From a virus, in IMG/VR virus record IMGVR_UViG_3300028783_000001, positions 62,001 to 126,000 of that record: a stretch of 64,000 nucleotides of DNA; one strand, 5' to 3'. The notes beneath the pieces are model-generated. The model worked only from the letters and a program-made list of their open reading frames with translations. It ran no database searches and was not told the DNA's origin. The position numbers were made by a program, and so were the translations under genes. Each line of letters begins with the position of its first letter. Positions within the stretch are counted from its first letter, which is position 1. This document shows positions 2-30,598 of this stretch, piece by piece.

Positions 2-430
2 ACGTTGGAAGACAAACCTGCAGAGTCCGACTACTTCTTGATCGCACCAGACTCTGGCGCCGCCAAGAAGGTTCAGGCCGTATGGGATATGACCGACTGT
101 GAAAATCCTCCTGTCGTCTTCTTTAAGAAGCGTGGGATTGGTGGTCAGATTGATAGCATTGAAACGTCGTTGCATTCAATGTTTGGTAAGGATGCATGGA
201 TTGTCGACGACATCTGCGATGGTGGACGGACGTTTATTGCGCTTACCAAGAAGCTGAAGGAGATGAACGTAGGTAACGTGTTTCTAATCGTATCGCACGG
301 CATCTTCTCGTATGGTACCAAGTGCTTGGAAGACGCCGGCATCGAACATGTGTGGACTACGGATAGCTTCCCAGAAAAAGCTAGTGACTACGACCTCATT
401 ACTCGCATGTCACTCAGCGACCTTATCTAA
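2..430 (+). CDS. PRPP synthetase-like (or ADP-ribose pyrophosphate synthetase, Adps) C-terminal part, 5' end outside window
   Basis: The reading frame is open to the window edge, so only about 142 C-terminal residues are visible; PRPP synthetases are usually about 300 residues. The fold is a type I phosphoribosyltransferase: KKRGIGGQIDS resembles the flexible-loop region of Prs proteins, and IVDDICDGGRTF matches the PRPP-binding signature (hydrophobic patch, two acidic residues, then GG-T). Known Prs proteins make PRPP from ribose 5-phosphate and ATP; the phage homologue Adps of NARP1 instead pyrophosphorylates ADP-ribose. The next gene, 11 bases downstream, is a nicotinamide phosphoribosyltransferase homologue, so the product is probably passed to it. 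The fold and pairing are seen; the substrate is inference. The TTG at position 5 is not a credible start because the domain is incomplete there. Confidence 0.8.
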   Translation, partial: TLEDKPAESDYFLIAPDSGAAKKVQAVWDMTDCENPPVVFFKKRGIGGQIDSIETSLHSMFGKDAWIVDDICDGGRTFIALTKKLKEMNVGNVFLIVSHGIFSYGTKCLEDAGIEHVWTTDSFPEKASDYDLITRMSLSDLI

Positions 431-441
431 AGGATCATCCA

Positions 442-2127
442 ATGAGATACCTTCCCGTCAAGCAATACGACTTCCAGAATCCTGGCCTCCACGTTGATGG
501 CTACAAGACTGGGCATATCAACCAGTTTCCAGACAACACCACTTTCTGCTATTCAAACTTCACGCCGCGCAGCACGAAGCACCTTGCGACGCTAGACGAC
601 TTCGACGACCGCATCGTCTTCTTCGGGCTCAATGGGCTGATCCAGTGGTACCTCATCAACGAGTGGAACGATAAGTTTTTCAACCGACCAGTTGAGGCCG
701 TCGTTAGCCTCTACCAAAAGACGATGGACGACTACCTCGGACCTGGAATCGTTGGAACGGATCACATCCGCGCGCTACATGAGCTGGGCTACCTACCGAT
801 CCTCATCAAGGCATTGCCGGAAGGCTCGCGCGTAAACGTTCGCGTGGCGATGTGGACGATCCAGAATACGCTACCGGAGTTTTTCTGGCTCACGAATTAC
901 CTGGAGACGCAGCTGTCGGCACAGTTCTGGAAGTCGCCCACGACCGCCACCACGGCGTTTGAGTTTAAGCGGCTGTTCATCCGCTACGCCCACCAAACTG
1001 GCGTACCGGTGGACTCTGTTGACGGACAGCTAGTGTTTAGCGACGTGCAGGGTCACGACTTCGCCATGCGTGGAATGTCCGGATGCACCGACGCCATCAT
1101 GCAGGCGGCGGCGCATCTGACGTCTCACCACGGCACCGATACCGTTCCGGCGATCCTCTACATCAAGGAGCTGTATGGGGACGACTCGTTTGTTGGCTGC
1201 TCGGTTCCTGCAACAGAGCACGCCGTCATGTGCATGGGCGGTAAGGACGATGAGGTCCACACAATCTACCGGCTTATTGCGGAAATCTATCCGAAGGGAA
1301 TCGTCAGCATCGTTTCCGATACCTGGGACTTCTGGAACACGTTGTGCAATACGACTAAGCTGCTCAAGCCAGAGATCATGGCTCGCGATGGCAAGGTTGT
1401 GTTTCGCCCAGACTCCGGCAATCCCGCTGACATAATCTGCGGAACTGCGCGGAGCATGGATTACTGCGGGAGCGTCCGCGACGCCTGCTCGGAAGCAAGG
1501 TATGCAGGAGTTGGCGTCTTCACTTATGGTGGAGCCTACTACGAGGTATGTGAATCACTGGCAGTGGCCCCCCATGGAGCATTTACGGTAGATGGGCTGT
1601 CCTATCTGCGCGTCGAACCAACTCCTGAGATGATGGGTGCTGTGCAGGTTTTGTGGGACAACTTCGGCGGAACCGAGACCGACAAAGGCTTCAAGGTGCT
1701 AGATTCACACGTTGGCCTAATCTACGGTGACTCAATAAACCTCAAGGTCGCAGAGGACATCTTCCAGCGGTTGATCACCAAGGGCTTCGCATCAAACAAC
1801 ATCGTGTTTGGCGTCGGCTCGTTCACCTACCAGTTTGTCACGCGCGATACGATTGGGTCTGCCATCAAAGCCACATACGGATGCGTCAACGGCGAATACC
1901 GTGAGCTGTTCAAAGATCCGAAGACAGACAACGGTGTGAAGAAGAGTGCACGCGGCCTGATCCGAATCGAGGGCAACGACGAAGATGGTTTCACCCAGTT
2001 CGACCAGCAATCTCTTGATGAGGTGACCAAGGGCCTTCTGAGGCCGGTATTTTATGAGGGAAAATACATCGATCACGGCGACACCATATCGGTGATCCGT
2101 GAGCGGTTAAACAAGCAGGTGTATTAA
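442..2127 (+). CDS. Nicotinamide phosphoribosyltransferase family protein (NadV/NAMPT or Namat type)
   Basis: A 561-residue protein starting at ATG after AAGGA. The N-terminus (HVDGYKTGH, FTPRSTKH) is typical of the NAMPT/NadV family, and the central SDVQGHDFAMRGMSG, the SDTWDFWN stretch and VVFRPDSGNPAD (about residues 325-336) match conserved active-site segments of that family. NAMPT joins nicotinamide to PRPP giving NMN; the NARP1 enzyme Namat joins nicotinamide to ADP-ribose pyrophosphate giving NAD+ directly. The protein is longer than typical NAMPT (about 460-490 residues). With the preceding Prs-like gene it forms a two-gene NAD+ rebuilding cassette, plausibly countering host defences that destroy NAD+. 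Family assignment is firm; whether it makes NMN or NAD+ is not decidable from sequence alone. Confidence 0.9.
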   Translation: MRYLPVKQYDFQNPGLHVDGYKTGHINQFPDNTTFCYSNFTPRSTKHLATLDDFDDRIVFFGLNGLIQWYLINEWNDKFFNRPVEAVVSLYQKTMDDYLGPGIVGTDHIRALHELGYLPILIKALPEGSRVNVRVAMWTIQNTLPEFFWLTNYLETQLSAQFWKSPTTATTAFEFKRLFIRYAHQTGVPVDSVDGQLVFSDVQGHDFAMRGMSGCTDAIMQAAAHLTSHHGTDTVPAILYIKELYGDDSFVGCSVPATEHAVMCMGGKDDEVHTIYRLIAEIYPKGIVSIVSDTWDFWNTLCNTTKLLKPEIMARDGKVVFRPDSGNPADIICGTARSMDYCGSVRDACSEARYAGVGVFTYGGAYYEVCESLAVAPHGAFTVDGLSYLRVEPTPEMMGAVQVLWDNFGGTETDKGFKVLDSHVGLIYGDSINLKVAEDIFQRLITKGFASNNIVFGVGSFTYQFVTRDTIGSAIKATYGCVNGEYRELFKDPKTDNGVKKSARGLIRIEGNDEDGFTQFDQQSLDEVTKGLLRPVFYEGKYIDHGDTISVIRERLNKQVY

Positions 2128-5287: not shown

Positions 5288-5473
5288 ATGCTGATGACCG
5301 ACATCTGTAGTTTGTGCCAAGGCACTGGAAACATTCTCTGCGTTCACAACGAACGCAGAGAATTTTGGTCTTGTGTGGCATGTGGTGGAGCCGGCGCGCG
5401 TGTAATGTACGGACCACCTACGATTCATATTCATGTCCCGAAGACTAAGAAACGCACGCAGAGTAAATGCTAG
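5288..5473 (+). CDS. Small zinc-ribbon-like protein
   Basis: Two CxxC pairs (CSLCQGTG and CVACGGAGA) with GTG/GAG spacing like the DnaJ/Tsi Cys-rich motif CxxCxGxG, separated by about 19 residues, suggest one zinc site. The start is uncertain: ATG at 5288 or 5294, with only weak ribosome-site candidates. The C-terminus is basic. Such mini zinc ribbons are frequent in phage accessory regions; role unknown. Confidence 0.6.
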   Translation: MLMTDICSLCQGTGNILCVHNERREFWSCVACGGAGARVMYGPPTIHIHVPKTKKRTQSKC

Positions 5474-5489
5474 ATATAAGGAGACGATC

Positions 5490-6716
5490 ATGGGCAATTT
5501 CACGTGCGAAGTGGTAGAGGGTGGCGGACTGGTCAAGAAGTGGGATCATGGCGTGGTGTTCGAGGAACAGGCGCAGCAGCAGCTTCGCAACCTCGCAACG
5601 CTTCCGTTTGTGCACAAACACATCGCGGCCATGCCCGACACGCACTGGGGGATGGGAGCAACAATCGGATCGGTGATCGCGACGCGCGGCGCAATCGTGC
5701 CAGCCGCCGTGGGAGTTGATATCGGTTGTGGAATGATGGCCTATCGCTTGTCACTTACGGCAAACGATCTTCCTGACAACCTACACGCGATTCGTTCGGC
5801 AATTGAAAACGCTGTGCCTCATGGTCGCACAAACAACGGTGGTCCCGGCGACCGTGGTGCGTGGCACGACGTCACCGATGTTAACAAGGATCGCTGGGAC
5901 CGGCTTAAGGCGCGTCACGATGAGATTGTCGCCAAGCATCCTGGAGCGGATAGCCGCAATAAGGTGAAGCACCTCGGCTCACTCGGCACGGGAAACCACT
6001 TCATTGAGATTTGCCTAGACGAGGACGACCGCGTGTGGGTAATGCTGCACTCTGGGTCGCGCGGTGCCGGCAACCGCATCGGCGTCTACTTCATCAACAA
6101 GGCCAAGGAGGAGATGCAGAAGTATTTCATCGACAAGTATTTGCCGGATCGGGACCTGTCCTACCTCGTCGAGCATACAGACCTGTTCGACGACTACGTG
6201 GAGGCGGTCGAGTGGGCGCAAGACTTCGCTAGCGCCAACCGCGAGGCGATGATGGAAGCTACGTTGACCGTGCTGCGAGCATGGCTGCCACCGTTCACCG
6301 TGGACCCAGAGATGGCTGTAAGCTGTCACCACAACTACATCTCGCGCGAGAACCATTATGGTAAAAATGTAATCGTCACGCGCAAGGGCGCGGTGCGGGC
6401 TCGGACGACCGACCTCGGCATCATCCCCGGCTCGATGGGGACGGGATCGTTTATCGTGCGTGGCAAAGGTAGTCAGGATTCCTTCTGCTCGTGCTCGCAT
6501 GGTGCTGGTAGATCGATGAGTCGTACTCAGGCTCACAATACGATCACGCTTGAGGAACACGCGAAGGCGATGGAAGGGATTGAAGCCCGACTCGACAAGG
6601 ACGTTATCGATGAGTCGCCCGCCGCATACAAGGACATCAACGCGGTCATGAACGCCCAGACAGACCTCGTCGAAATCATCCATACGTTACGCCAGGTACT
6701 GAACGTTAAGGGGTAA
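5490..6716 (+). CDS. rtcB: RtcB-type RNA ligase
   Basis: A 408-residue protein starting at ATG after AAGGAGACG. Family signatures are GVDIGCGM (metal-binding Cys), KHLGSLGTGNHF (with the Asn/His ligands), HSGSRGAGNRIG, HHNYISRENH and GIIPGSMGTGSFIVRGKG, followed by CSHGAGRSMSR, which carries the guanylated His region (SHGAGR). RtcB joins RNA 2',3'-cyclic or 3'-phosphate ends to 5'-OH ends using GTP and Mn2+. In a phage it would repair tRNAs or other RNAs cut by host ribonuclease defences. No archease gene is visible beside it. Length and motifs indicate an intact enzyme. Confidence 0.95.
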   Translation: MGNFTCEVVEGGGLVKKWDHGVVFEEQAQQQLRNLATLPFVHKHIAAMPDTHWGMGATIGSVIATRGAIVPAAVGVDIGCGMMAYRLSLTANDLPDNLHAIRSAIENAVPHGRTNNGGPGDRGAWHDVTDVNKDRWDRLKARHDEIVAKHPGADSRNKVKHLGSLGTGNHFIEICLDEDDRVWVMLHSGSRGAGNRIGVYFINKAKEEMQKYFIDKYLPDRDLSYLVEHTDLFDDYVEAVEWAQDFASANREAMMEATLTVLRAWLPPFTVDPEMAVSCHHNYISRENHYGKNVIVTRKGAVRARTTDLGIIPGSMGTGSFIVRGKGSQDSFCSCSHGAGRSMSRTQAHNTITLEEHAKAMEGIEARLDKDVIDESPAAYKDINAVMNAQTDLVEIIHTLRQVLNVKG

Positions 6717-6871: not shown

Positions 6872-6994
6872 ATGATCCACGACGACTGTGTCTTGACCGT
6901 GCTGTATGAAACCCAGCGTTGTCAGATGGTGGTATTTGTCCTGGTAGCAGCCATTGTATTGATGGCGACAATAAACTTTTTTGGGAGAAGATGA
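6872..6994 (+). CDS. Hypothetical membrane microprotein, 40 aa
   Basis: Starts directly after the previous stop with GGGGAGG upstream. One membrane helix (MVVFVLVAAIVLMATINFF) near the C-terminus; the last bases overlap the start of the next gene. Function unknown. Confidence 0.5.
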   Translation: MIHDDCVLTVLYETQRCQMVVFVLVAAIVLMATINFFGRR

Positions 6995-7905
6995 TGGCTA
7001 CATCAGCCGATGACTTAGAGCAGCAGTTAATCCAGCGGCTGATGTCAGCTCGTGCTACTGGTGCCTCCGTGCGATGCGCCCCGATGCTCGTCCTTAGTAG
7101 CGAGGATATTGAAATAATCATTGATGCGTTTCATGACCGCAACGATTATTTAGCTGCCATGAACCACTATGGCGACCTTGCGTTTGTCGACAACAATTCT
7201 GAGTCGCTAAAGACGTGGCGGGGCGTTGCCGAGGACATGGCGGCTGAGATGGCATCTATGCAATCTCTGATCGACGCTTATGAGGACGCCGATGACGACT
7301 CTTGGTGTGAGACTCAGGAAGTTATCAATGAGGACGACATAATTGGAGACCTCGACTGCGACAATGACGACGAGCTGGAGGAACCATTCAACGACTTGTT
7401 TACGGAGCGTCGCGCGCATATTGAGACTGAGAAAGTATTACGCACGGCAGTGCTCAACATGATGGATGGCGTAGCTAAGGACAAGGCAATTGCATACCTA
7501 GGGTTGTTGGTCCTCAAGCGTGAGGCAGACGGCATTGATGAGAATGCATACCCGCATGAGTTCACCAAGTCGCTTCTTAAGCAGATTGCCGATTTTGATG
7601 AGGCCGAGCGTCGCGGCGAGGTTCGGACGTTTACCACTCTCGATGAATTTTTCGAGGAGATGGATCAGGAGGACTCTGCTCCAGAAGACTTCGTACTTAA
7701 TAAGTTTACGGTATCGTCTGGTACATTTAAAGTCGGTGACGACTTTTTGAAGTTGCCGTCGGATGAACCCGCTATGGAATCCGAACTTACCCCTGAGGAA
7801 GAGGCCGAGCGTGATGCGATGATTGCTGGACTTACCGAAGATGAGCAGCTAGCCTATGGTGTGATGCAATTCTCAATGGCCGCTGACCGTCAGCGGAGGA
7901 GCTGA
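6994..7905 (+). CDS. Acidic hypothetical protein, 303 aa
   Basis: The start is ATG at 6994 (or the adjacent ATG at 6991), with GGGAGAAG upstream. The protein is very acidic, with runs such as EDADDDSW, EEDQ-type clusters and DCDNDDELEE, and appears mainly helical. A conserved-looking N-terminal segment VLSSEDIEIIIDAF is followed by predicted helices. No enzymatic motif seen. The high negative charge could indicate a DNA mimic or a soluble scaffold, but there is no direct support for either. Confidence 0.65.
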   Translation: MATSADDLEQQLIQRLMSARATGASVRCAPMLVLSSEDIEIIIDAFHDRNDYLAAMNHYGDLAFVDNNSESLKTWRGVAEDMAAEMASMQSLIDAYEDADDDSWCETQEVINEDDIIGDLDCDNDDELEEPFNDLFTERRAHIETEKVLRTAVLNMMDGVAKDKAIAYLGLLVLKREADGIDENAYPHEFTKSLLKQIADFDEAERRGEVRTFTTLDEFFEEMDQEDSAPEDFVLNKFTVSSGTFKVGDDFLKLPSDEPAMESELTPEEEAERDAMIAGLTEDEQLAYGVMQFSMAADRQRRS

Positions 7906-7907
7906 TT

Positions 7908-8315
7908 ATGGACGACCTCATAAACCCGGCTATGCAGATACTCGGCTATACCCTATTCACGTTGCTGATGGCCCTAGTGGCAATCGCCTTCTTCAAGACT
8001 GTAGATCAATCCATCGCTACTTTCCGTGAGTGGTGTGGATCGCGAGTGACTCCAGTAGAGCAGGCACCTCTAGCCAAACCACCAGTTTATTCACTAATCT
8101 TCAACACCAACCGCATGGATGCAATCTACGTAATCCCTTCCGGTGATGGAATCGACGAGGGGTTGGAGTGGTCTCTCGATGTTAAGAGTGTCGATATAAT
8201 ACGCTCACTGTTTGACCAGTGGGCCATGCGTAAGAGTATGGAGAAGCACGACGCCAAACTTATTACAGAGCATCCTCAAACTGATGCTCTGGGAATCCTA
8301 GATGGACAAAGCTAA
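7908..8315 (+). CDS. Membrane-anchored hypothetical protein, 135 aa
   Basis: One N-terminal membrane helix (ILGYTLFTLLMALVAIAFF, about residues 11-29) is followed by a soluble domain containing YSLIFNTNRMDAIYVIPSGD and a helix at IIRSLFDQWAMRK. The layout (anchor, short beta region, terminal helix with LxxWL-like residues) resembles the pair at 10638-11242. The stop overlaps the next ATG. Function unknown. Confidence 0.6.
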   Translation: MDDLINPAMQILGYTLFTLLMALVAIAFFKTVDQSIATFREWCGSRVTPVEQAPLAKPPVYSLIFNTNRMDAIYVIPSGDGIDEGLEWSLDVKSVDIIRSLFDQWAMRKSMEKHDAKLITEHPQTDALGILDGQS

Positions 8316-10432
8316 TGGAAATGCTAGATACCGTCGCCCTGCACAGCTTTGCAGCGAACCACCATACAGAGGGACGTCTCGTAGACGCCGAACGAATCTA
8401 CCAGACTCTGCTTCGAATCGATCCATGCGATCACGTGACGCTACACGCGCTAGGCGTTATAGCTTATCAAAACGGCGACAACAAGAGCGCGTCCGACTTC
8501 ATAAATGCAGCGATCATCGTCGACGATTCAATCGTCGTGTATCACTTCCACCACGGTGTGGCTCTACAGCTACTGGGCAACTTCGACGCCGCCAAGGCTC
8601 GTTACGAGCACGCGATTAGGATGCAGCCTGTCTACGCAGACGCCTACAACAACCTTGCCTTCATCCACTTCACCAGTGCTGCCTTCGACAAGGCGGAGGC
8701 CTGCTTCAGGCAGGTGCTAGAGTGGATTCCAAACGCCGCTGAGGTTCACAGCAATCTGGGCAATACGCTCGGTGCTCAATTGAAATACAACGAGGCAGTG
8801 GAGGCGTATGATCGAGCGATTGCCCTGCAGCCGAGATATCCAGACGCATGGTACAACCGTGGCAACGCCCTGGTAGAACTCGACCAGCTATCTGCCGCAG
8901 TGGAGTCGTATAGGTCGGCAATCCGACTTGATCCAAACTACGTCAAGGCCCATAACAACATGGGCAACGTACTCATGTTAATGGGACGCATCGATGAGGC
9001 AAAGACGACGTTTGAAGATGTCCTACGCATTGATCCAACCTACGTTGACGCTCTAAGTAACCTCGCAGGAGCTCATCAAGGTAGTGGCAACAGTGCTGCC
9101 GCAGGCGAGGCAAGGGCTGCCGTTCTAGCAATCGACCCGACGCACATTAGCGCGTTTAGCAACACCATGATGATGCTGCAGTACCAGCCAAATAGCGTCG
9201 ATGAGCGAATTGCATGCGCGCACAGGTTTGGTGAGATGATCGACCGGGAGGATGCAGTCCCACCAATCCCCCACGACCTTTCCCCCAAACGTAAGCTGCG
9301 GATCGGCTACGTCTCCGCAAACCTGTGCCATCACCCGGTTGGGTTCCTGATGACGCGCGTCCTCGCCGCACATGACAAGGACAGGTTTGACATCTACTGC
9401 TACATGAGCGGCTCGCGACGTGATGATACCGCGCGCAGGATATACGATGACTGCACCCAGTGGCGGGTGATATTCCCCTTGTCAGACGATCAAGCTGCCG
9501 CAATGATTCGCTCAGACGACGTGGACATCCTCGTTGACCTAGACGGCCATACCGGAGGCAACCGTCTGGGCGTGTTTACGATGCGTCCGGCACCAATCCA
9601 GGTGAGCTGGCTAGGCTACATGGGAACTACCGGCCTCTCGGCAATGGACTACATCCTGATGGATGAAGCTACCGTTCCTCGCGTCGAACATGAATGGTTC
9701 TCTGAGGAGATTGTTCGCCTCCCATACGGGCGCTTCTGCTACGAGGCAATGTCTGGAACCCCAGACGAAGCGCCTCCGCCCTGCCTGGAAAATGGTTTTA
9801 TAACCTTCGGTTCGTTTAACAACCCCACTAAGTACAACGCCGACGTCATTGCACTGTGGTGTAGAGTTTTGCTGGTGGTGCCAAACTCGCGCATGCTCAT
9901 CAAGTGGCGGTCGCTGCAAGACGCCGGTGGATTGCGCGACAAGCTCATGGGATGGTTTGCAGACGGCGGCGTAGATGGGAGCCGCGTCGAGCTTCGCGGC
10001 TGGTCCAATCACGAAGATACGATGCGCGAGTATGCCGACGTCGACATCGCGCTAGACCCGTTTCCATTTAGCGGCGGTCTGACTAGCATGGAGGCGCTGT
10101 GGATGGGGGTTCCCGTCATCACGCTTCCTGGAGTCCAGCCGGCGTCGCGCCAGACGCTAAGCATGCTACAGGTAATTGGGTTACTAGGAACGATTGCTAC
10201 AAGCGAGGATCACTACGTCTCTATTGCAATAAACCTAGCCGGCGACTTAGATGGGTTGAGGCTGCGTCGCGAGGTACAGCGCGACAAGATGGAAGCGTCT
10301 CCTATGTGCGACGGTGAGTTATTTACCGGAGCGCTAGAAGTTGTCTACCGTGAGATGTGGTGGCACTACGTGGGGAGGGGTTCTAAGTCGATTGCGGGTG
10401 CACGCAGCAAGCCAACGGGACTGAGTAAATAG
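8315..10432 (+). CDS. TPR-containing O-GlcNAc transferase-like glycosyltransferase (GT41/SPINDLY-type)
   Basis: A 705-residue protein. Residues about 5-300 are tetratricopeptide repeats (units such as AEVHSNLGNTLGAQLKYNEA and PDAWYNRGNALVELDQLSAA). Residues about 325-690 match the OGT/SPINDLY catalytic region: LRIGYVSANLCHHPVGFL (with the H-x-x-x-x-H-like motif), DILVDLDGHTGGNRLGVF, PIQVSWLGYMGTTG, ITFGSFNNPTKYN, then DIALDPFPFSGGLTSMEALW and GVPVITLPG. The last three form the UDP-sugar or GDP-sugar binding half. Known relatives add GlcNAc or fucose to Ser/Thr. The target could be a phage or host protein. It is unusual in a phage accessory region and looks intact. Confidence 0.88.
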   Translation: MEMLDTVALHSFAANHHTEGRLVDAERIYQTLLRIDPCDHVTLHALGVIAYQNGDNKSASDFINAAIIVDDSIVVYHFHHGVALQLLGNFDAAKARYEHAIRMQPVYADAYNNLAFIHFTSAAFDKAEACFRQVLEWIPNAAEVHSNLGNTLGAQLKYNEAVEAYDRAIALQPRYPDAWYNRGNALVELDQLSAAVESYRSAIRLDPNYVKAHNNMGNVLMLMGRIDEAKTTFEDVLRIDPTYVDALSNLAGAHQGSGNSAAAGEARAAVLAIDPTHISAFSNTMMMLQYQPNSVDERIACAHRFGEMIDREDAVPPIPHDLSPKRKLRIGYVSANLCHHPVGFLMTRVLAAHDKDRFDIYCYMSGSRRDDTARRIYDDCTQWRVIFPLSDDQAAAMIRSDDVDILVDLDGHTGGNRLGVFTMRPAPIQVSWLGYMGTTGLSAMDYILMDEATVPRVEHEWFSEEIVRLPYGRFCYEAMSGTPDEAPPPCLENGFITFGSFNNPTKYNADVIALWCRVLLVVPNSRMLIKWRSLQDAGGLRDKLMGWFADGGVDGSRVELRGWSNHEDTMREYADVDIALDPFPFSGGLTSMEALWMGVPVITLPGVQPASRQTLSMLQVIGLLGTIATSEDHYVSIAINLAGDLDGLRLRREVQRDKMEASPMCDGELFTGALEVVYREMWWHYVGRGSKSIAGARSKPTGLSK

Positions 10433-15069: not shown

Positions 15070-15101
15070 AAAACCCCGCTGGATTGCTCCAGCGGGGTTT
15101 T
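15070..15101. terminator. Bidirectional hairpin terminator between convergent arms
   Basis: Perfect 14-bp stem AAAACCCCGCTGGA / TCCAGCGGGGTTTT with a TTGC loop, followed by CTTTT on the + strand and by TTTTG on the - strand. It lies exactly between the last + gene (ends 15059) and the last - gene (ends 15117), so it can stop transcription from both directions. Confidence 0.92.
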
Positions 15102-15459: not shown

Positions 15460-18400
15460 TTACCGAATGTTGATCGTGCGTGACTGGTAGCGGATAGCAA
15501 CCGTATTGAATGGTAGCTGTTCCCTAGCGTTTATGGTGATAGTCTCCACCCTACCAAGCTCCACGATAGCTTGTGCTAGTGGTATGGTAAACATATTAAT
15601 GGTGCTAGATAGTGATCTAGTTGTAGCTGTTGCATCTGCTGATATAGCATCACCACCTGGATCAGCAACTGCACCTTGAGTTGCTGCAACTGACCTAGCT
15701 GACGGTAGTGGTATGGCTTCAGTTACATACAACGGAGCTATATTCACAACTACGCCAGCTCTAGGTAGCAGCGCAAAGAGCCAAGGAGCAGTTAGCGGAG
15801 CTGATAATGCTCTACTACTAACGGCAACCCCTTTTGATGCTACGTCGGAATATGAAGCAGCAACTGCCGTTGCAACTGCAATAGTATTAGATTGGATTAT
15901 AAAGAATATTTGCGGAGCAAATACGCCAAGAATTTCTGCTGCGGATGTTCCTACCAACGCAGTTAGTATTACATCGGAGAAGTTTCCTGCTGATGCGGCT
16001 ACCAACGTGGATGCTACGGTAAACAACTTAATAGGCGTAAACAGGCCGCATGCCGACGTAGATACAGCTCCCATAGCTAGCAACCCTGTCTGGATTGCAT
16101 AAGTTGCCGCAGCAGTTGCTACGTTCGCTCCAGTAGGTGTAGAGCTTGTATTATGCAGCAACAACCCAGCAGAAGGGGTAGCTGCAACACCAATTAGAGC
16201 GATTGCACTAGTTGGTAACGGAGCTTGTGCCGTCGATGAAACTAATGCTCCTGTTAGAGTTTGTTGTGGAACAAATATTTTAGCTACCGAAGTAGCTTGC
16301 GCTCCTGATAGAGTCGGTTGCGTTACAAACCAACTGGCATTAGATGAAACTTGCAACCCGATTAAGGTAGGTGATGCATAAAACTGATTTGCTGTAGTGG
16401 TTACAAAGGTACCTACTACAGCAACCAAGGGGGTGAATCGGTTTGCCGTAGAGGTGGTTTGAGCACCGTTGATGGTTAGTGTAGTAGCTGTCTGTAATGA
16501 CTGACCAGCAGTAACAACCGCAGCACTATAGACGGTGAGATTCGGCCAAAATGAATTGCAACCAACCATTACTTGTGCACCGCTCAACACATCTTGCGGA
16601 GAGAAGATGCTGGCGATTGCAGATAATTGCGTTCCAAATAAGGTAGGTTCGGGCACAAACACCTGAGCTGACGTAACAATCTGTCCACCAGAGGTGGAAG
16701 GCGAGGACCAAAATCTTTGGGCTGCTGATAATACCGACGCGCCTGTTGTGGTTGGCGTCAATGTGGTTGATAGAACTTGTGCAGTAGTTACAGACTGACT
16801 ACCAACTGCTGTAGGTTTATTCCATAATGGACCTGCAGTAGCTGCTACGCTAATACCTGCAAGGACAGTCTGGAGAGTTATGCCGTTTAATGGTTGCCCG
16901 CTTACAGAGACGAATACTCCAATTAAGGTAGGTTTATTCCAGAATATATTAACCGACGACACTACCAACGTGCTTAGCACAATAGGAGCAAACCAGAAAG
17001 AGTTTGCAGCTTCAACTGCTTGTGCACCAACTACAGTTGGTTGTGGTATGAAAACGTTTGCTGTTGTGGTTACAGTAGAACCAAACAGCAATGCGCTAGT
17101 TGCATACGCCAAAGATCCAGCAGACGAACCGACTTGTACTCCAGTCGCTATCGGTTTAGGAAAGAATGTGTTTGCAGCACTTACCGCACCAACACTCAAC
17201 CAGATGCCCAATTGAATCGAGCCAGCAGACGCAATTGCGGCCACTCCTGGAAGTGTTGGTTTCTCCTGGAAATAATATGCACTCGTAGTGGCCTGCACAC
17301 CTGTTAATAATGGTGCCAACCAAAACAGATTGCACGAAGATACAACTGCTGTGCCAAGTATGGTGGGTTGATTATAAAATGATTGTCCGCTGGAAGCTAC
17401 CTGTGCTCCGGCTACTGCTACACCAACTTGTACCCACAGCGCATTTGCCGTAGTAGATACCGCAGCGCCGGTAAACGACGGTGCTACCTGCTGACCAAAT
17501 ATATTTGATGAGGTTATTACCGACGCACCGGTAACTGGTATGTTTTGACTGAATATGCTGGCGATGGCAACTGTCGCCGCGCCGACCAATACAGGCTTAG
17601 GCATAAACGCCGATGAACTAGCAACACTACTTACACCAACTAGGGTTGGCGACGTCCAAAACGGGTTTGCATAAGAAGTCGTGGTAGTTCCAATTATCGG
17701 TATTATCATCCACAGAGCATTAGCGGTTGAAACCGTGAGAGCACCAACTAACACTGGTTGTCTAATAAACATCACAGCATTAGTTGTGCTGCTAGTTCCA
17801 ATCAACGTTGGCTGAAGCCAAAATGCGTTTGCCGATGCTGTGGCTTGTGTTCCAGGTATGTAGGGGTTTGGTGAGAATGCGCTAGTTTGTGTAGCTACCT
17901 GACATCCAACAAAGCGAGGAGCTGAGTTGAATACATTTGCAGTAGAGTTTACCAGACCTCCGGTTAGTGTTGGAGAAGAGGCAAATGGACCAGCTGATGC
18001 AGTTGTCTGATTACCTGCCGCTGTTGGTTGTGGAACAAATATGCCGGCGGTTGATGAAGCCTGTGCACCGGTTGAAGTTGGTGCAGGGTTGAATACATTT
18101 GCAGTAGAGTTTACCAGACCTCCGGTTAATGTTGGAGAAGAGGCAAATATCCCAGCTATAGCCGACGACTGAACACCAGACAACGTTGGTTGTGGAACAA
18201 ATATATTTGCAGTAGAGCTAGCCTGCGCTCCAGCTGGAGTAGGTGCAGGGTTGAATATGTTTGCAGTAGTTGTTCCTAGTGCACTACCAAATATATGCTG
18301 AACAATTACAGGCACAAAAGATTGTGCTGCGGATGTAATCTGCGGTCCGATTAAGGTCGGTGATAGGACAAACGCATTCGCTATGGTAACAACTGGTGCA

Positions 18401-21078
18401 CCAATCAGCGTAGGTGATAAGAAGAAATTACCGGCTATTGCTGCTACTTGATAGCCAGTAGTTGTTGGAGATGGGCTAAACGCCCACGCAGTGGTTGAAA
18501 CTTGAGGTCCGGTTAGAGTGGGTCCAATCAATACAGGAACAAACGACTGTGATGAGGTTGCTACTTGAGATCCAGTTAGTAGAATCCTGGGCCACAGAGC
18601 ATTAGCAGTAGCAGTTACCTGCGCACCTGTTGCAGTCGGGTTTGGTATAAAGATTCCTGCATAAGAAGTAGTAGCTGCGCCGTTTGTCACAAGCGAGATT
18701 GTGACTCCGTTGTAGCTCATTGTAATTGACTGAACGGCCTCAGAAGTATTAACCGAACTGGTATATCCTGAAGTAGTTGTTACACCGCTTTCATCAGTAG
18801 CACTGCTATACAGCTGCCAGTCAGTACATCCTGCAGTTGGTGTATTGAAGAAGTTTGTCGTTCCATACGAGCCCCGGGTGGTGCAATAAAACGAAACAAT
18901 CAAGTCGCGCGTATAATCATAGACGAAGGGAACCGCATCTGATGTAAATGCACCAGGTCCAGGTATTATATATGAGGTATTTCCTCCAAAGGTAAGCTGG
19001 ACTTGATTCCCATCAAAGTCTGGAACTAAGGCGCTTGCAACAGGTGAATGACCAATCCACGCTGATGTAAATGCACCAGCCGAAGTTCCAGACGCAGCAT
19101 TAAACGTGACTAATATTACACCGGTAGCCGATGCCGGCCCCAACAGGTTCGCATTAAACTGCGACCGATCCGTCCAGCCAGACCAGTTTGGGGATGATCC
19201 TGATAGAGTTTGCGAGAATATCGTAGTGGTAATCGCTACAAATCCTGATGCGGAAGTTGTAGCTACAGTACCAGATAAAGTAGGTGATTCTGATATAACA
19301 AATGTTGGTCCTTGCGCCGCCGTAGATACACTAGCACCAAGTAGGTTGTCTGATATTGCTGATCCATACGTAACAATGATAAGACCTGGAGCACCAGCAC
19401 CATTTATAACGCCGTTACCACCAGCACCGCCGTATAGACCGCCTGCTCCACCTGAACCTCCACTAGAAGATCCACCTAGAGGCTCAGCACCAAGTGCGAC
19501 TCCTGCTGTTCCACTCGCTGGCGCAGATCCACCACCGCCGCCGCCGGAGCCGGCACTCGGCGTTGTTCCTGTATAAGTCGTCCCGTTCCAGGTATTAGTG
19601 GAAGTCCATTCTGTTCCGGTAGATCCAGCAGCTCCGCCGTTGGTGTTACCAATACCACCAACTCCACCATTACCATTGTCACCAACACCACCCGGACCGT
19701 TGTAGCCTCCGCTACTTCCACCAGCGCCATAACGTCCAGCCGCCCCACCACCACCGGCGTAGCCTCCGCTATTTCCCGCTCCACCAGCATATACTGTAGT
19801 GCCAACACAGTTTGTCGTCGCATTACTATCACCAGCTGCTAATACAGTAGCCGTGCTATAAAACCACGTATTAGCGGTTGCCGATCCCGCACCAGTAGTT
19901 CCACCACCAACACCCAGTTGATAGGAGATTGACCCACTACCAGACCAGTTTGTAATCTTAGAATAACAGCCACCATTACCATCGGTAGTTCCACCAGCTC
20001 CAATACATTCAATCGTATTGTCCGACGTATTCCAGTCTGCTGGAATCGTCCAATTACTCCCCCCTGTAAGGAAGATTACGTTTCTCGAAGTACCAGCGAC
20101 ACTAGTAAATAAACCTGCTGATGAAGTGGATCCAGCACCTGTAAATGGTGGTTGGACTTTAACCGGAATAAGCGTTTGAGCGGACGTCGTAACAGATGTT
20201 CCACCACCATAAGGGTTAGGCCAAAAGTTGTTTGCTAATGCTGTTATTGATGCTCCAGGTAGGGTAGTTGCGCTAACCGTATAGGTGATGATAATAACAC
20301 CACCGGCACCCGCGCCACCAGCTCCGGCTGATGTTCCATAAGATCCAGAACCACCACCTGCACCATATAGGCCACCAGCACCACCAGTATTCTGAACGCT
20401 CGACGATCCGTAGGAACCACCACCGCCACCACCTGAACCCGCTGCGCCAGCACCAAGCTCAGATCCATTTCCACCTACTCCACCAACTGTTGATCCAGAA
20501 GTGCCTGCTGCACCAGCAGATCCACCTGATGTTCCATCACCATTACCACCAGCACCAGCTGCGGAAGCAGTTGCGTTTGCACCAACTGCACCAACTCCGT
20601 TTGGTCCGCCAGCACCACCACCTCCTGAGCCGCTATAACCCGATGATCCAAAGTAGCCACCATTACCACCATTGTTTCTAGTGAGGTAGCCTGATGATGG
20701 AATGCAATTCGTTGCCAAACCACCAAGCGAGGCGGCGTTTGTTATTCCACCACCTGCGCCGCCTGGTGCACCAACGCTCGATCCTACAAGTGTAGTTCCA
20801 TTGAAGAAGGTGCTTCCACCAGCTACACCTGGATTTGCGGTGGTGCTGCTAGCAGCACCACCGGCTCCACCATTACCAACAGTAAACTGAATGTTTGCAC
20901 CAGGAGATACAGCAAGGGTAGCGATACTTACATAAGCACCACCTGCGCCGGCTACTGGGTAGTTGTAATAGTTTGCACCACCACCACCTGCGCCGATACA
21001 TTCAACTTTAAGTGACGTAACATTAGAGGGGACAGTCCACGGAGAGGTGGAGGCTGTCGTTAAGACAACAACAGTCAT
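15460..21078 (-). CDS. Giant repetitive tail fibre / receptor-binding protein, 1872 aa
   Basis: ATG at 21078 after AGGGAGGTGACCT. Residues 1-270 are a Gly-rich fibre domain (WTVPSNVTSLKVECIGAGG, then Gly-rich loops, ending GVIIITY), like the polyglycine domains of phage receptor-binding tips. Residues about 330-590 repeat that plan (WTIPADWN, TIECIGAGG, GLIIVTYG). A beta-rich domain follows (about 620-800). The remainder to about residue 1720 is roughly 49 tandem units of about 18 residues, consensus A(N/G)xFxxxPTLxGAxVxTT. The C-terminus has GRVETITIN and RTINIR, shared with the next protein. Unusual in carrying Gly-rich tip-like domains at the N-terminus. Surface adhesion or receptor binding is inferred. 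Confidence 0.8.
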   Translation of the reverse strand: MTVVVLTTASTSPWTVPSNVTSLKVECIGAGGGGANYYNYPVAGAGGAYVSIATLAVSPGANIQFTVGNGGAGGAASSTTANPGVAGGSTFFNGTTLVGSSVGAPGGAGGGITNAASLGGLATNCIPSSGYLTRNNGGNGGYFGSSGYSGSGGGGAGGPNGVGAVGANATASAAGAGGNGDGTSGGSAGAAGTSGSTVGGVGGNGSELGAGAAGSGGGGGGSYGSSSVQNTGGAGGLYGAGGGSGSYGTSAGAGGAGAGGVIIITYTVSATTLPGASITALANNFWPNPYGGGTSVTTSAQTLIPVKVQPPFTGAGSTSSAGLFTSVAGTSRNVIFLTGGSNWTIPADWNTSDNTIECIGAGGTTDGNGGCYSKITNWSGSGSISYQLGVGGGTTGAGSATANTWFYSTATVLAAGDSNATTNCVGTTVYAGGAGNSGGYAGGGGAAGRYGAGGSSGGYNGPGGVGDNGNGGVGGIGNTNGGAAGSTGTEWTSTNTWNGTTYTGTTPSAGSGGGGGGSAPASGTAGVALGAEPLGGSSSGGSGGAGGLYGGAGGNGVINGAGAPGLIIVTYGSAISDNLLGASVSTAAQGPTFVISESPTLSGTVATTSASGFVAITTTIFSQTLSGSSPNWSGWTDRSQFNANLLGPASATGVILVTFNAASGTSAGAFTSAWIGHSPVASALVPDFDGNQVQLTFGGNTSYIIPGPGAFTSDAVPFVYDYTRDLIVSFYCTTRGSYGTTNFFNTPTAGCTDWQLYSSATDESGVTTTSGYTSSVNTSEAVQSITMSYNGVTISLVTNGAATTSYAGIFIPNPTATGAQVTATANALWPRILLTGSQVATSSQSFVPVLIGPTLTGPQVSTTAWAFSPSPTTTGYQVAAIAGNFFLSPTLIGAPVVTIANAFVLSPTLIGPQITSAAQSFVPVIVQHIFGSALGTTTANIFNPAPTPAGAQASSTANIFVPQPTLSGVQSSAIAGIFASSPTLTGGLVNSTANVFNPAPTSTGAQASSTAGIFVPQPTAAGNQTTASAGPFASSPTLTGGLVNSTANVFNSAPRFVGCQVATQTSAFSPNPYIPGTQATASANAFWLQPTLIGTSSTTNAVMFIRQPVLVGALTVSTANALWMIIPIIGTTTTSYANPFWTSPTLVGVSSVASSSAFMPKPVLVGAATVAIASIFSQNIPVTGASVITSSNIFGQQVAPSFTGAAVSTTANALWVQVGVAVAGAQVASSGQSFYNQPTILGTAVVSSCNLFWLAPLLTGVQATTSAYYFQEKPTLPGVAAIASAGSIQLGIWLSVGAVSAANTFFPKPIATGVQVGSSAGSLAYATSALLFGSTVTTTANVFIPQPTVVGAQAVEAANSFWFAPIVLSTLVVSSVNIFWNKPTLIGVFVSVSGQPLNGITLQTVLAGISVAATAGPLWNKPTAVGSQSVTTAQVLSTTLTPTTTGASVLSAAQRFWSSPSTSGGQIVTSAQVFVPEPTLFGTQLSAIASIFSPQDVLSGAQVMVGCNSFWPNLTVYSAAVVTAGQSLQTATTLTINGAQTTSTANRFTPLVAVVGTFVTTTANQFYASPTLIGLQVSSNASWFVTQPTLSGAQATSVAKIFVPQQTLTGALVSSTAQAPLPTSAIALIGVAATPSAGLLLHNTSSTPTGANVATAAATYAIQTGLLAMGAVSTSACGLFTPIKLFTVASTLVAASAGNFSDVILTALVGTSAAEILGVFAPQIFFIIQSNTIAVATAVAASYSDVASKGVAVSSRALSAPLTAPWLFALLPRAGVVVNIAPLYVTEAIPLPSARSVAATQGAVADPGGDAISADATATTRSLSSTINMFTIPLAQAIVELGRVETITINAREQLPFNTVAIRYQSRTINIR

Positions 21079-21112: not shown

Positions 21113-23701
21113 TTACCATGTGGACCCTCCTGTTGCGCGCGTAGATCGGTCACGTTGGATGTTTAGGGTACGACTCTGCCTGCCTCTGGTAGCGTACACC
21201 GTTCGTTTTGAAGGCGGCAGCACGACCGGGTTAATACAAATAGTTTCGACGCGTCCGCAGATTGCAATAGACGTAGCCGAAGGTAGCTGTTGCGAGAAGG
21301 ATTGGTGTGACAACGCACCTATGGTAGCAGTAGCACCACATGAATGTAGTTGTATGGTTGTAGTAAATGCACACGAAGCAGCGATTCCAGATGCCGTGGC
21401 ATGAAGCTCATCCTGCGGCATTGGATCGGGAACACCAACAGCCGTGGTTACTACCGCTGCAGACACACTTATTAGCAATGCCACTGCGAGCGACTGGGCC
21501 GACGCTAAGGCGGCAGACGCGCTACTGGCTGCTACCTGTGCGACGGTCGTTCCCGCCGACGTCGAGCATTCTGCACCAGATGCTACTGAGGCTATTGCAG
21601 GTTGGAACAGACCAGCCGAGGCCGTCGCCGGCGTTCCAGTTACGTAGACCTTTGGCCAGAATACGTTTGCTGAGGTAGTTGCCTGCGCACCATTGATAGT
21701 GGGTATTGATACGACAGTCCCGGCTGTAGCACTGACTGCTAAACCAGATAGCCCCGACGTGTGGGTAGTCGTTAGAGTCGCGCCGGTCGTCCCGACGGTA
21801 GCTCCCACGAGCAGCGGCTGCATTATTAGTGCCACTGGCTGTGCCGTCGACGCTACCGACGATCCAAGCAGTATTACCTGAGACCAGAATGAGTTTGCAC
21901 CTCCGGTCGCCTGGGCACCAAGTATGGTTGGCTTCATCCAAAACGGGTTTGCCGCTGGGGATACCGCCACACCAATCAGTGTGGGGCTAGACCAGAACCT
22001 ACTCGCCGATGATAAAACCTGCGCACCGACAGCAAACGGAGCAAACTGGTTGGCTGAGGCTACGACTTGTGCACCAACCAGCGAGGTGAATATAACGGCG
22101 ACCGTAACGATTACCTGTGCGGACGAAGTTGCCTGCGCACCATTGATAGTGGGTATTGATACGACAGTCCCGGCTGTGGATGCAGCCTGCGCTCCGATTA
22201 GGGTCAACTGCACTATTGGGGCCAGTGCCTGCGCCGACGACGTAACCGCCGTACCGCTTATCGCATACTGGATCTGTGGAGTGAGCGGTTGTGCAGATGA
22301 TGTTGACGCAACCCCAGGAAGTGCTTGGGTTTGTGTTGGGGCCAGCGCTTGTGCCGACGTCGTGGTCGACGCCCCAACGATTACCGGCGTGATAACCGGC
22401 GCTATGGATTGTGCAGATGTGGTAACAGATACACCCGGCAATGACTGCAGATGCTGAGTTGTGAGTGTCTGCGCCGAGGTGGTGGATGATGAACCAACAA
22501 GGCCAAACGAATTGACCGTTGCAGTTGACTGCGCTGCTGATACAACCGACGCCCCAATAACTAGCACCTGCGGCCAGAATGCACTTGCACTCGACGTCGC
22601 CGGCGCTCCTACGAGGACCGATTGTGCCGTTACTGTTACACCCTGTGCGGCGGTAGTTACAGACGCGCCAGTTACAACGGGGCTTGGCCAGAACTGATTA
22701 GCTACAGATATTGACTGCGCACCAGGCAGCGTAACTGGCGCTACAGCAGGTAGCGACTGCGCGGCTGTAGTGCACGAAGCACCAACGGCTACAGCTGCAA
22801 CGATTAATGATAGCGCCTGCGATGCCGTAGTTGCTACGGCACCTACGCCAGCGGTCTGTGCAATCGTGGAAAAGGTATTTGCTGCTACAGCCGACTGCGC
22901 CCCTGGGAGGGTAAGTTGCAACTGTGTCGATAGGCTTTGCGCGGTATTAGTTGCGGCCGCTCCAGTAAACGTCGACTGCACCTGTGTTGGTGCTAGTGTC
23001 TGTGCCGACGTTGTTGCAGCCGTTCCGATTAGGGTCGACTGCACCAGCGCAGATGAAAGGGTTTGTGCAGACGTCGTTGTTGACGCACCATTTAGCGTCG
23101 ACTGCACAGTTACAGGGGTAAGGCTCTGCGCCGATACAGATACAGACGCACCTGGTAGTGTAGGTTGTGACCATAACTGATTGGCAGTTGATGCGACTTG
23201 TGCACCAGCTGGTAATGCAGCGACCGTTGGTGAGAATGTGCTAGCCGAGGTGACGGTGGATGCACCGGCGACCATCGCCAGCATCAAGAAGATGTTTGGT
23301 GTCGAGGTAACCTGAGCGCCGGTGAAGGCCAGCTGCACGCTGGTCGGCCAAGGCTGTGCTGATGTTGAGACGCTAGAGTCCTGCAGCGTCCCAGAGTAGG
23401 ACGTTCCAGATTGAGGTGATAAGGCTCCAGCAGTGGTGGTTACTGACGTACCCGTCAGATTGATAGATTCAGAAATTACCCCAGCGTAAGCCCAGCTACA
23501 TGCGCCGATCAGCGCGTTGTTGAATGCGGAGAGGGCAAAGAGCGTCGTGGGCTGCGCTACGTAGCTAGTGCCGTAGTTTGTCAGATCGAGAATAAGCGGA
23601 GCCGTAGCACCCACTAAATTAGTGGGTGCTACGGCTCCAGTTGTTAGGAGAAGGTTTATATAACCAGGTTGGTTTTTGGCCAGTAGGGTCGTTGACGACA
23701 T
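21113..23701 (-). CDS. Repetitive tail fibre protein, 862 aa, related to the giant fibre
   Basis: The N-terminus has a distinct domain (residues 1-95; KNQPGYINLLLTTGAVAPTN). The bulk is about 35 degenerate 18-20 residue units with the same layout as the giant fibre (ANQLWSQPTLPGASVSVS; AQTLAPTQVQSTFTGAAATN). The C-terminal 60 residues contain GRVETICIN and RQSRTLNIQ, equivalent to GRVETITIN...RTINI in the neighbouring protein. No catalytic motif. Probably a fibre or decoration protein; its coding sequence contains a perfect inverted repeat near the 5' end. Confidence 0.75.
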   Translation of the reverse strand: MSSTTLLAKNQPGYINLLLTTGAVAPTNLVGATAPLILDLTNYGTSYVAQPTTLFALSAFNNALIGACSWAYAGVISESINLTGTSVTTTAGALSPQSGTSYSGTLQDSSVSTSAQPWPTSVQLAFTGAQVTSTPNIFLMLAMVAGASTVTSASTFSPTVAALPAGAQVASTANQLWSQPTLPGASVSVSAQSLTPVTVQSTLNGASTTTSAQTLSSALVQSTLIGTAATTSAQTLAPTQVQSTFTGAAATNTAQSLSTQLQLTLPGAQSAVAANTFSTIAQTAGVGAVATTASQALSLIVAAVAVGASCTTAAQSLPAVAPVTLPGAQSISVANQFWPSPVVTGASVTTAAQGVTVTAQSVLVGAPATSSASAFWPQVLVIGASVVSAAQSTATVNSFGLVGSSSTTSAQTLTTQHLQSLPGVSVTTSAQSIAPVITPVIVGASTTTSAQALAPTQTQALPGVASTSSAQPLTPQIQYAISGTAVTSSAQALAPIVQLTLIGAQAASTAGTVVSIPTINGAQATSSAQVIVTVAVIFTSLVGAQVVASANQFAPFAVGAQVLSSASRFWSSPTLIGVAVSPAANPFWMKPTILGAQATGGANSFWSQVILLGSSVASTAQPVALIMQPLLVGATVGTTGATLTTTHTSGLSGLAVSATAGTVVSIPTINGAQATTSANVFWPKVYVTGTPATASAGLFQPAIASVASGAECSTSAGTTVAQVAASSASAALASAQSLAVALLISVSAAVVTTAVGVPDPMPQDELHATASGIAASCAFTTTIQLHSCGATATIGALSHQSFSQQLPSATSIAICGRVETICINPVVLPPSKRTVYATRGRQSRTLNIQRDRSTRATGGSTW
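23598..23638. repeat. Perfect 19-bp inverted repeat inside fibre gene
   Basis: Arms GGAGCCGTAGCACCCACTA (23598-23616) and its exact complement (23620-23638) with a 3-base AAT loop. It lies at codons 22-35 of the 862-residue fibre gene, where both arms are translated (GAVAPTN / VGATAPL). No U-run follows, so it is not a simple terminator. Confidence 0.9.
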
Positions 23702-28472: not shown

Positions 28473-29228
28473 TCAAGCGATTCTGAGGAGTCCTGTGCTG
28501 CTATTTGCGGTAGGTACGACCAGCGTAAATGTTCCGGCCGACACCGTCTGAACACCACCGAAGTCGTGGACGGACACCGTATGGTTGACGGCGATTGTCG
28601 AGGTCGTTCCGGCAGATCCGACACCGGGGGTAATTCCACCAGATGCTCCACCGAGGCGAGCAGATTTGTTGTAGATCACGCCGCAGTACACGGAGAATGA
28701 TGCGGAGGTCCACTGGATCGTGGTCGAGAAGGAGCCGACCGCAGTCTGAGACGACAGCACTGCCAAAACGTTTGCGAGTGCTAGGCCACCAGCGGTATAG
28801 GCGGAACCGGAGGTGTTGGTGCACTCGTCGGTGCCGATGTTGGTGACCGACGGGGTGCCGGTTCCAGGAGTTCCTGCATTGACGAGCAGGTTATTGTACT
28901 GCTGGGCGCTAGCGTTGTTGATCAGCGAGATGTACATGACGTCACCGGTAAACGTCGGGTTGGTTAGCGCGCCGGTTGAGGCGTTACTAAGCGTCAGGGT
29001 AGACTGGCCCGTAAGCTGAGCGACGACTGTGTTCGCGGCGGTGTTGGTTCCAGTAACGGCCATGCCGACTGCGATACCGCTGATGCCGGAACCACCCATG
29101 GCGGTCATTGCCGTGGTGGACGAGCAGGTGCAGGTCAGAGTAGTAACGGTGGCGAGGCACATTCCGCCGTTGAAGAAGTCGGTTTTCGCTTGACATGTGA
29201 TGGCTGTCGTGGCGCTTGCATAAGTCAT
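28473..29228 (-). CDS. Virion structural protein A, 251 aa
   Basis: Starts with CAAGATATG after AGGAATC. Paralogue of 29885-30598: shared CTCSST, GIAVGMAVTGTN, SNASTGALT-type TFTGDV, GTPGTG, SARLGGA-type and VSVHDFGGVQTVSAGTFTLV segments. Ser/Thr/Gly-rich beta protein. Together with the following 195-residue gene it forms a two-gene module present twice in tandem. Likely a virion surface protein; function unknown. Confidence 0.7.
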   Translation of the reverse strand: MTYASATTAITCQAKTDFFNGGMCLATVTTLTCTCSSTTAMTAMGGSGISGIAVGMAVTGTNTAANTVVAQLTGQSTLTLSNASTGALTNPTFTGDVMYISLINNASAQQYNNLLVNAGTPGTGTPSVTNIGTDECTNTSGSAYTAGGLALANVLAVLSSQTAVGSFSTTIQWTSASFSVYCGVIYNKSARLGGASGGITPGVGSAGTTSTIAVNHTVSVHDFGGVQTVSAGTFTLVVPTANSSTGLLRIA

Positions 29229-29884: not shown

Positions 29885-30598
29885 TCACGAGATCTGGAGA
29901 ATACTCGTGCCTTGTGCGTTTGTAGGTAACACGACCGTGAAGGTGCCGGAAGTCACCGTCTGTGTGCCGCCGAAGTCGTGAATGGAGATGGCGCGGTTTA
30001 TTGCAGATCCTGAGGCGTTGGCGGTTACGCCGTTTGCAGCTGCTCCGAGGCGTACGCTAGTATTATAGATTATACCGGCTGTGGTGGAAAACGATGCCGA
30101 AGTCCACGACGGGTTTGTCGTAAACGACCAGTAACCGGCTGTGGTTCCAACCGCAGGGGATATGTTTGTGAGAGCGAAGCCGCCAGTGGTATATCCTGAT
30201 CCTGACGTCTCATCGGTTCCGACGTTTGTTACCGATGACGCACCGGTTCCTGGCGTGCCGACATTTGTCTGCGTTCCAGAGAAGGTGGATACCGGAGACG
30301 CCTTAATGAGCAGCATGTTGAACACGTCGCCTGTGAAGGTCGCTGCCGTTAGTGCTCCCGTGGAGGCGACGCTTAGATCGACCGCCGTCTGGGAGACGAT
30401 CTTCGACACGACTCCGCCGGCTCCAGCGTTTGTGCCGGTAACGGCCATACCAACGGCGATGCCGGCAGTAGTCGAAAGGCCAGTCATATGTACTGTTGAC
30501 GAGCAGGTGCACGCCAATGTTGGGAGGGTTGCAAGAAAGCAGTGAGCTGCTTGGGCTAGCTCACTCTTCGCAGAATAGGTGAATGCGGTGGTAGCGAT
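29885..30598 (-). CDS. Virion structural protein A', 237 aa, apparent ATC start
   Basis: Paralogue of the protein at 28473-29228, with conserved ending (ISIHDFGGTQTVTSGTFTVV). Homology extends upstream of the only canonical start (TTG at 30517): ATTAFTYSAKSE and CFLATLPTLACTCSS match ATTAITCQAKTD and CLATVTTLTCTCSS in the paralogue. The matching region begins at an ATC codon (30598-30596) with AGGAG 8 bases before it. No ATG, GTG or TTG lies upstream in frame before a stop. Either a near-cognate start or a mutated start codon. Function unknown. Confidence 0.6.
   Translation of the reverse strand: MATTAFTYSAKSELAQAAHCFLATLPTLACTCSSTVHMTGLSTTAGIAVGMAVTGTNAGAGGVVSKIVSQTAVDLSVASTGALTAATFTGDVFNMLLIKASPVSTFSGTQTNVGTPGTGASSVTNVGTDETSGSGYTTGGFALTNISPAVGTTAGYWSFTTNPSWTSASFSTTAGIIYNTSVRLGAAANGVTANASGSAINRAISIHDFGGTQTVTSGTFTVVLPTNAQGTSILQIS

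Follow-up and report, generated by a model that had tools for sequence, protein, structure and literature searches.

The question raised by this locus is what a phage does with a gene for a TPR-containing protein glycosyltransferase of family GT41, and which protein the enzyme would modify. Enzymes of the OGT/SPINDLY family put single sugars on Ser and Thr residues of proteins. The window, that is the whole stretch of 64,000 nucleotides analysed here, corresponds to bases 62001-126000 of a record of 168,737 bases (G000), which is a myovirus: its structural genes encode the portal, major head protein, tail sheath, tape measure and baseplate hub, and its replication and metabolism genes a DNA polymerase, helicase, NAD-dependent ligase, Thy1, RNA ligase, PRPP synthetase and NAPRTase. 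An earlier note on this DNA had described the glycosyltransferase as phage-encoded, and this gene content confirms it. Contamination of the contig was considered as the source of the gene and excluded, with phage genes on either side: it is situated between the replication genes and the tail genes. The relatives found in deposited phages were the RHph_N46 (Rhizobium), PaBG, Lu11 and BcepSauron groups (31-39% in portal and head proteins), and an IMG/VR search with the major head protein found no kin. Also present are a TerC-family membrane protein and ThiF-like, dimethylargininase-like and macro domain proteins in the early half of the record, and a protein with a Tad2-like (Thoeris anti-defence) domain, one bearing an intein/Hint, and HNH and TnsA-like endonuclease domains in the late half.

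The reading frame runs through 705 aa without internal stops, exactly where the earlier note had called an intact ORF (Table 1), and its ATG overlaps the stop of the preceding gene (TAATG, 8313-8317). The protein matches Pfam Glyco_transf_41 (PF13844; E 9e-54, 183 bits against a cut-off of 25) as well as TPR families (E down to 2e-39), and the best phmmer match in the PDB was Arabidopsis SPINDLY (1.9e-120), followed by human OGT (7e-115) and Thermobaculum OGT (2.6e-88), in agreement with the GT41/SPINDLY-like assignment made before. By its sequence, the gene is predicted to encode a complete SPINDLY-like GT41 enzyme. The novelty is the carrier, a phage, and not the enzyme, which is an ordinary member of its family in an unusual place.

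Table 1. Features of the GT41 locus and its surroundings (positions in the window)
Feature	Position	Strand	Basis or remark
Intrinsic terminator-like hairpin, 13 pairs, before rtcB	5333..5363	+	consensus scan
RtcB RNA ligase, first gene of putative transcription unit	5433..6716	+	PF01139, 8.5e-126
328-aa acidic protein, start codon uncertain, directly upstream	6919..7905	+	no Pfam match
135-aa protein, one apparent membrane segment	7908..8315	+	no Pfam match
TPR-GT41 protein O-glycosyltransferase gene, predicted	8315..10432	+	705 aa; Pfam, phmmer, AlphaFold, Foldseek
Eight 34-residue TPRs, aa 6-277	8330..9145	+	repeat table; model helices
GT41 GT-B catalytic domain, ~aa 321-690	9275..10384	+	Pfam, alignment, model
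Codon of H340 (= SPY H495, OGT H558)	9332..9334	+	His in 112/114 homologues
Codon of K506 (= SPY K665, OGT K842)	9830..9832	+	Lys in 112/114, gap in 2/114
Codon of K530 (= SPY K689; Leu866 in human OGT)	9902..9904	+	alignment
Codon of F585 (= SPY Y744; Cys917 in human OGT)	10067..10069	+	alignment
Intrinsic terminator-like hairpin, 14 pairs, unit end, convergent with tail genes	15070..15101	+	consensus scan
1872-aa protein, S+T 24.6%, candidate acceptor	15460..21078	-	N-terminus resembles glycine-rich/tail-fibre families
862-aa protein, S+T 28.3%, candidate acceptor	21113..23701	-	no family match

The repeats, previously counted as seven or eight, are eight exact 34-residue units, and all their helix pairs are present in the predicted structure (16 helices, from H6-18 to H260-273). 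The Asn ladder of OGT and SPINDLY TPRs binds the acceptor, and ladder-like NN or SN positions occur here in TPR4-8 and just beyond (N112-113, N147, N181, N214-215, N249 and N283). The AlphaFold model, built with 38 homologues as input, comprises the TPR helices and the GT-B domain (pLDDT 93, pTM 0.87). In Foldseek searches with this model SPINDLY chains ranked first, with a TMt of 0.83 for the SPINDLY-GDP-fucose complex 8dti, and the tightest overlay was obtained with Thermobaculum OGT 5djs (TMt 0.91, rmsd 2.6). The Met of 5djs at the catalytic Lys had been considered as a natural loss in a bacterial relative; it is instead the engineered mutation K341M.

We then compared the active site across 114 bacterial and viral homologues together with SPINDLY (SPY), Thermobaculum OGT and human OGT. 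The earlier note had set absence of the catalytic His or Lys as grounds for refutation; H340 and K506, whose counterparts are essential in plant SPINDLY and human OGT, are both present, the latter at the position of K665, which is essential for SPY (PMC9715652). With K530, F585 and E593 also at SPY/OGT key positions, the catalytic region is as full as had been proposed. N503 (= SPY N662), T590 and E593 (= SPY E752) are likewise retained, and the protein keeps every column that is invariant in a 39-sequence alignment. Phe for Tyr at SPY Y744 is a conservative swap common to 30 of the 114 homologues, and Leu, found at the SPY T748 position as L589, occurs there in 18/114. Asn at the position of SPY D491 (D554), here N336, is rare (3 homologues); the SPY D491A mutant is still active (PMC9715652). 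On these residues, the protein is probably catalytically active.

As regards the donor, K689 of SPY recognises guanine and Y744 contacts fucose (PMC10027727), and of the SPINDLY-like features described there the phage protein has K530, the aromatic F585, and E572 with no Arg at the OGT R904 position, E572 lying in a loosely aligned loop. SPY S496, T747, T748 and H728 are not matched (P341, G588, L589 and T569 in the phage protein), and as the bacterial homologues are variable there as well, this weakens the case for fucose but not that for GT41 membership. Lys at the guanine-reading position makes the enzyme SPINDLY-like rather than human-OGT-like, suggesting that its donor is probably a GDP-sugar. 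The phage's own nucleotide-sugar genes, encoding a glucose-1-phosphate cytidylyltransferase, two NDP-sugar epimerase-like proteins and a UDP-sulfoquinovose synthase (SQD1), would yield CDP- and UDP-sugars, and they lie beside TET-associated glycosyltransferases (DNA hypermodification). K530, by contrast, suggests GDP, and most simply the sugar would come from the host GDP-sugar pool.

Within the phage genome, GT41 belongs to a plus-strand run of small genes behind rtcB, convergent with the minus-strand tail genes; this unit is non-structural and includes small membrane-protein genes. The overlap with the stop of the 135-aa gene makes translational coupling likely. The two hairpins listed in Table 1 have the longest stems of the region, terminator-like sites overall being not above chance. 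The 328-aa protein has no relative among phage records. At the start of the window lies an NAD+ salvage pair, PRPP synthetase followed by nicotinamide/nicotinate phosphoribosyltransferase (window 5-430 and 442-2127 (+); G000:61546-64127).

Where the gene came from was addressed with bacterial relatives. Among the best 80 bacterial matches the closest was from Methylocapsa sp. S129 (L043/L133; 52% in the catalytic domain, 43% over the full length), in which a flagellin gene directly adjoins GT41 and the surrounding 18 kb contain, by Pfam, MotB, FliF, flagellin, FliL, FlgI, FlgG and FlhB. This neighbourhood points to a flagellin-glycosyltransferase-like (FlmG-type) ancestry. Flagellin was found within ~3 kb at 3 of these 80 best-matching loci, and neither the second Methylocapsa copy (L134) nor a Caulobacterales relative (L045/L135) lies in a flagellar cluster; the sister position of the phage protein and L043 in the tree is not strongly supported. 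Matches at <=1e-90 occurred in only 4 of 297 genomes of the same order. To judge from these comparisons, the gene was seemingly acquired from bacteria, its nearest relatives being proteobacterial.

Among viruses, tblastn against 50,697 phage records returned TPR matches only, none of them full length, and a viral fold library gave no full-length phage match, the nearest named GT41 being a partial match in the giant virus Hyperionvirus. Patterns drawn from the single protein landed on variable parts of the sequence and retrieved no relatives from IMG/VR or GTDB contigs, which a three-sequence alignment (A1) remedied: the motif scan of IMG/VR with A1 recovered GT41 at 34 loci in 33 records, 7 of which carry Terminase_6N and others portal or HK97 capsid. 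In L013 the gene directly follows tail-fibre/spike-like genes and precedes the large terminase (TerL), and in L011, read from its sequence, the order is GT41, DHH phosphoesterase, terminase, portal and capsid. Its presence in many contigs of uncultivated phages, of more than one origin, but in none of the deposited records suggests that GT41 in phages has escaped notice for lack of cultured carriers. The literature, searched with limited coverage of subscription journals, yielded no publication on a GT41 enzyme from a phage, the sole mention being GT41 in a CAZy table of vinegar viromes (PMC9602057).

In the tree, 29 of these loci, mostly of ~490-650 aa, form one viral clade (98% SH-aLRT; 100/99 in a careful subset), which may not be purely viral since the bacterial sample consists of the best 80 matches. 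The query was placed among bacterial sequences, as were L009, L010 and L011, of which L009 may be an integrated element, given a transposase-like gene read from the sequence nearby. The AU test rejected one common origin for the viral GT41s sampled (p 3e-67), so phages acquired the enzyme more than once; grouping of the query with the main viral clade was not clearly rejected (p 0.057). Across the IMG/VR loci (L009-L042), the viral TPR-GT41 clade (~29) is apparently without cultured members and several loci lie near terminase or tail genes; one 46.9-kb contig (L017/L025) has two GT41 copies, and a terminase-like ORF at L011:2372-4549 apparently contains an intein.

We next considered which proteins could be modified. 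Besides the two large candidates in Table 1, two small late proteins (window 28473-29228 and 29885-30517 (-)) are the phage's richest, with 29.5% and 31.4% S+T. The earlier note had pointed to extremely Ser/Thr/Ala-rich fibre proteins as attractive substrates; the Ser/Thr richness stands (24.6-31.4% S+T), but the 862-aa protein lacks a fibre-family match. Mean S+T in the structural block is 16.2% in this phage against 13.8% (maximum 18.4%) in the GT41-free RHph_N46, a comparison with one relative and only the genes in its bases 50001-100000. Ser/Thr-rich neighbours occur at 13 of 31 viral and 4 of 72 bacterial GT41 loci (Fisher p 2e-5). Permutation within loci, however, placed GT41 no nearer to such genes than random genes (P 0.42-0.48 with a threshold of 20% S+T; 0.14-0.19 with one of 23%), so the viral-bacterial difference reflects only position in viral genomes. 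Ser/Thr-rich neighbours were accordingly dropped as a marker of substrates, and the use of Ser/Thr-rich fibres as an argument for a virion target proved weak for want of any specific adjacency.

Our best explanation, held tentatively and with a little short of an even chance, is an active, soluble SPINDLY-like GT41 captured from bacteria that modifies the phage's own surface proteins, a reading that starts from the fold, repeats and catalytic residues and from them infers activity, donor and acceptor. The TPR superhelix would hold an extended Ser/Thr-containing stretch of the acceptor along the Asn ladder, and the GT-B domain would move one sugar onto it from a nucleotide sugar, probably GDP-linked and drawn from the host pool. 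The most likely acceptors would be the phage's own Ser/Thr-rich fibre or tail proteins, made later in infection, which would give a sugar-decorated virion. Virion fibres are narrowly favoured over flagellin or another host surface protein by the late-block position of GT41 in other phages (L013, L011), by the candidate Ser/Thr-rich acceptors with S+T above that of RHph_N46, and by the precedent of glycosylated phage capsids and tail tubes (Freeman et al. 2023, as cited in PMC12619734 and PMC10877033). Against a virion target, GT41 of this phage lies outside the late block, in the non-structural unit, with no specific adjacency to Ser/Thr-rich genes, and its nearest bacterial relative points to flagellin; L589 and N336 also count against the explanation as a whole.

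The same active enzyme might instead act on a protein of the host surface, with flagellin as the likeliest, in the manner of FlmG, which we consider rather unlikely though better placed than the remaining alternatives. In Caulobacter, FlmG is a cytosolic flagellin O-glycosyltransferase with TPR and GT-B parts that binds flagellin through the former (PMC7591256); Pfam GT41 was detected in the Caulobacter control genome, the Methylocapsa relative sits beside flagellin among flagellar genes, and the phage gene adjoins a predicted membrane protein in its non-structural unit. The scarcity of flagellin at the other bacterial loci, the non-flagellar settings of L134 and L045/L135 and the lack of strong support for the sister position argue the other way. 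No flagellin gene was recognised among the phage genes scanned. A changed flagellin or exported protein could alter motility or block superinfection by flagellum- or surface-binding phages, an outcome that we regard as equally doubtful.

Modification of an intracellular host protein of the transcription, translation or defence machinery, for host takeover, is distinctly improbable: eukaryotic GT41 enzymes modify many cytosolic proteins, and the unit contains RtcB and lies near NAD-salvage genes, but several other phages have GT41 in the late region and positive evidence for takeover is nil. Least probable of all is that the product is no working protein glycosyltransferase, being a TPR protein in decay or put to another use, or an enzyme acting on a non-protein acceptor such as DNA or a glycan, as L589, N336 and the separate module with two TET-associated glycosyltransferases might suggest, since the frame is unbroken at a full-length identity of 43% with the closest relative, all invariant family residues are retained, the fold is predicted with high confidence and no GT41 member is known to act on DNA.

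A wider reading is one that we hold with more reserve than the explanation for this phage itself: phages would repeatedly have captured bacterial TPR-GT41s, some derived from flagellin glycosyltransferases, and re-aimed the TPR part at fibre or tail proteins, giving general O-glycosylation of virions. Such a cytosolic system for the O-glycosylation of virion proteins would be new to phages. Few examples of glycosylated phage particles are known, namely capsids and tail tubes of mycobacteriophages. With an intact active site and an acceptor-binding TPR part, a phage GT41 would open virion or flagellin glycosylation by phages to direct testing; it could also explain protection or re-targeting of fibres and would serve glyco-engineering as a compact enzyme.

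Among known systems, the best match in sequence and fold is SPINDLY, the plant nucleocytoplasmic O-fucosyltransferase (7y4i, 8dti), which shares the TPR + GT41 layout, the catalytic His and Lys, the guanine-recognising Lys (K530) and an aromatic residue at the fucose position (F585). It differs in having 11 TPRs against 8, in S496 and T748, where the phage enzyme has P341 and Leu, and in being plant-encoded rather than phage-encoded; the phage donor is putative. FlmG, compared by description and not by sequence, likewise has a TPR N-terminus and a GT-B C-terminus (PMC7591256), and the flagellin neighbour of the nearest bacterial relative would fit such an enzyme, whereas the sugar of FlmG is pseudaminic acid. 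Human, Thermobaculum and Xanthomonas OGT share the superfamily fold and the catalytic Lys and His, but the intervening domain of human OGT and its UDP-selective L866, R904 and C917 are all absent from the phage enzyme. The mycobacteriophage systems (Freeman et al. 2023) serve as a precedent for phage-encoded glycosyltransferases in general, rather than for GT41 in particular, acting on capsid and tail tube.

Outside the window, the record encodes two TET-associated glycosyltransferases, a glycosylation module separate from GT41. One belongs to a group at G000:21234-27131 (+) (= L003:1234-7131) with a DNA methylase, the cytidylyltransferase (PDB 1tzf, 1.8e-110), two epimerase-like proteins and a Pfam-less protein; this glycosyltransferase is 47-49% identical to Aeromonas, Vibrio and Tenacibaculum phage proteins, and the module is probably one of DNA hypermodification with a CDP-derived sugar. 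The UDP-sulfoquinovose synthase gene (G000:166992-168203 (-) = L008:2992-4203) has plant SQD1 as its best PDB match over the whole length (3e-94), contains the YHMTK motif and has no full-length relative in the 50,697 phage records. It adjoins the other TET-associated glycosyltransferase (G000:166216-166995), which makes sulfoquinovose-modified DNA in this phage a testable idea.
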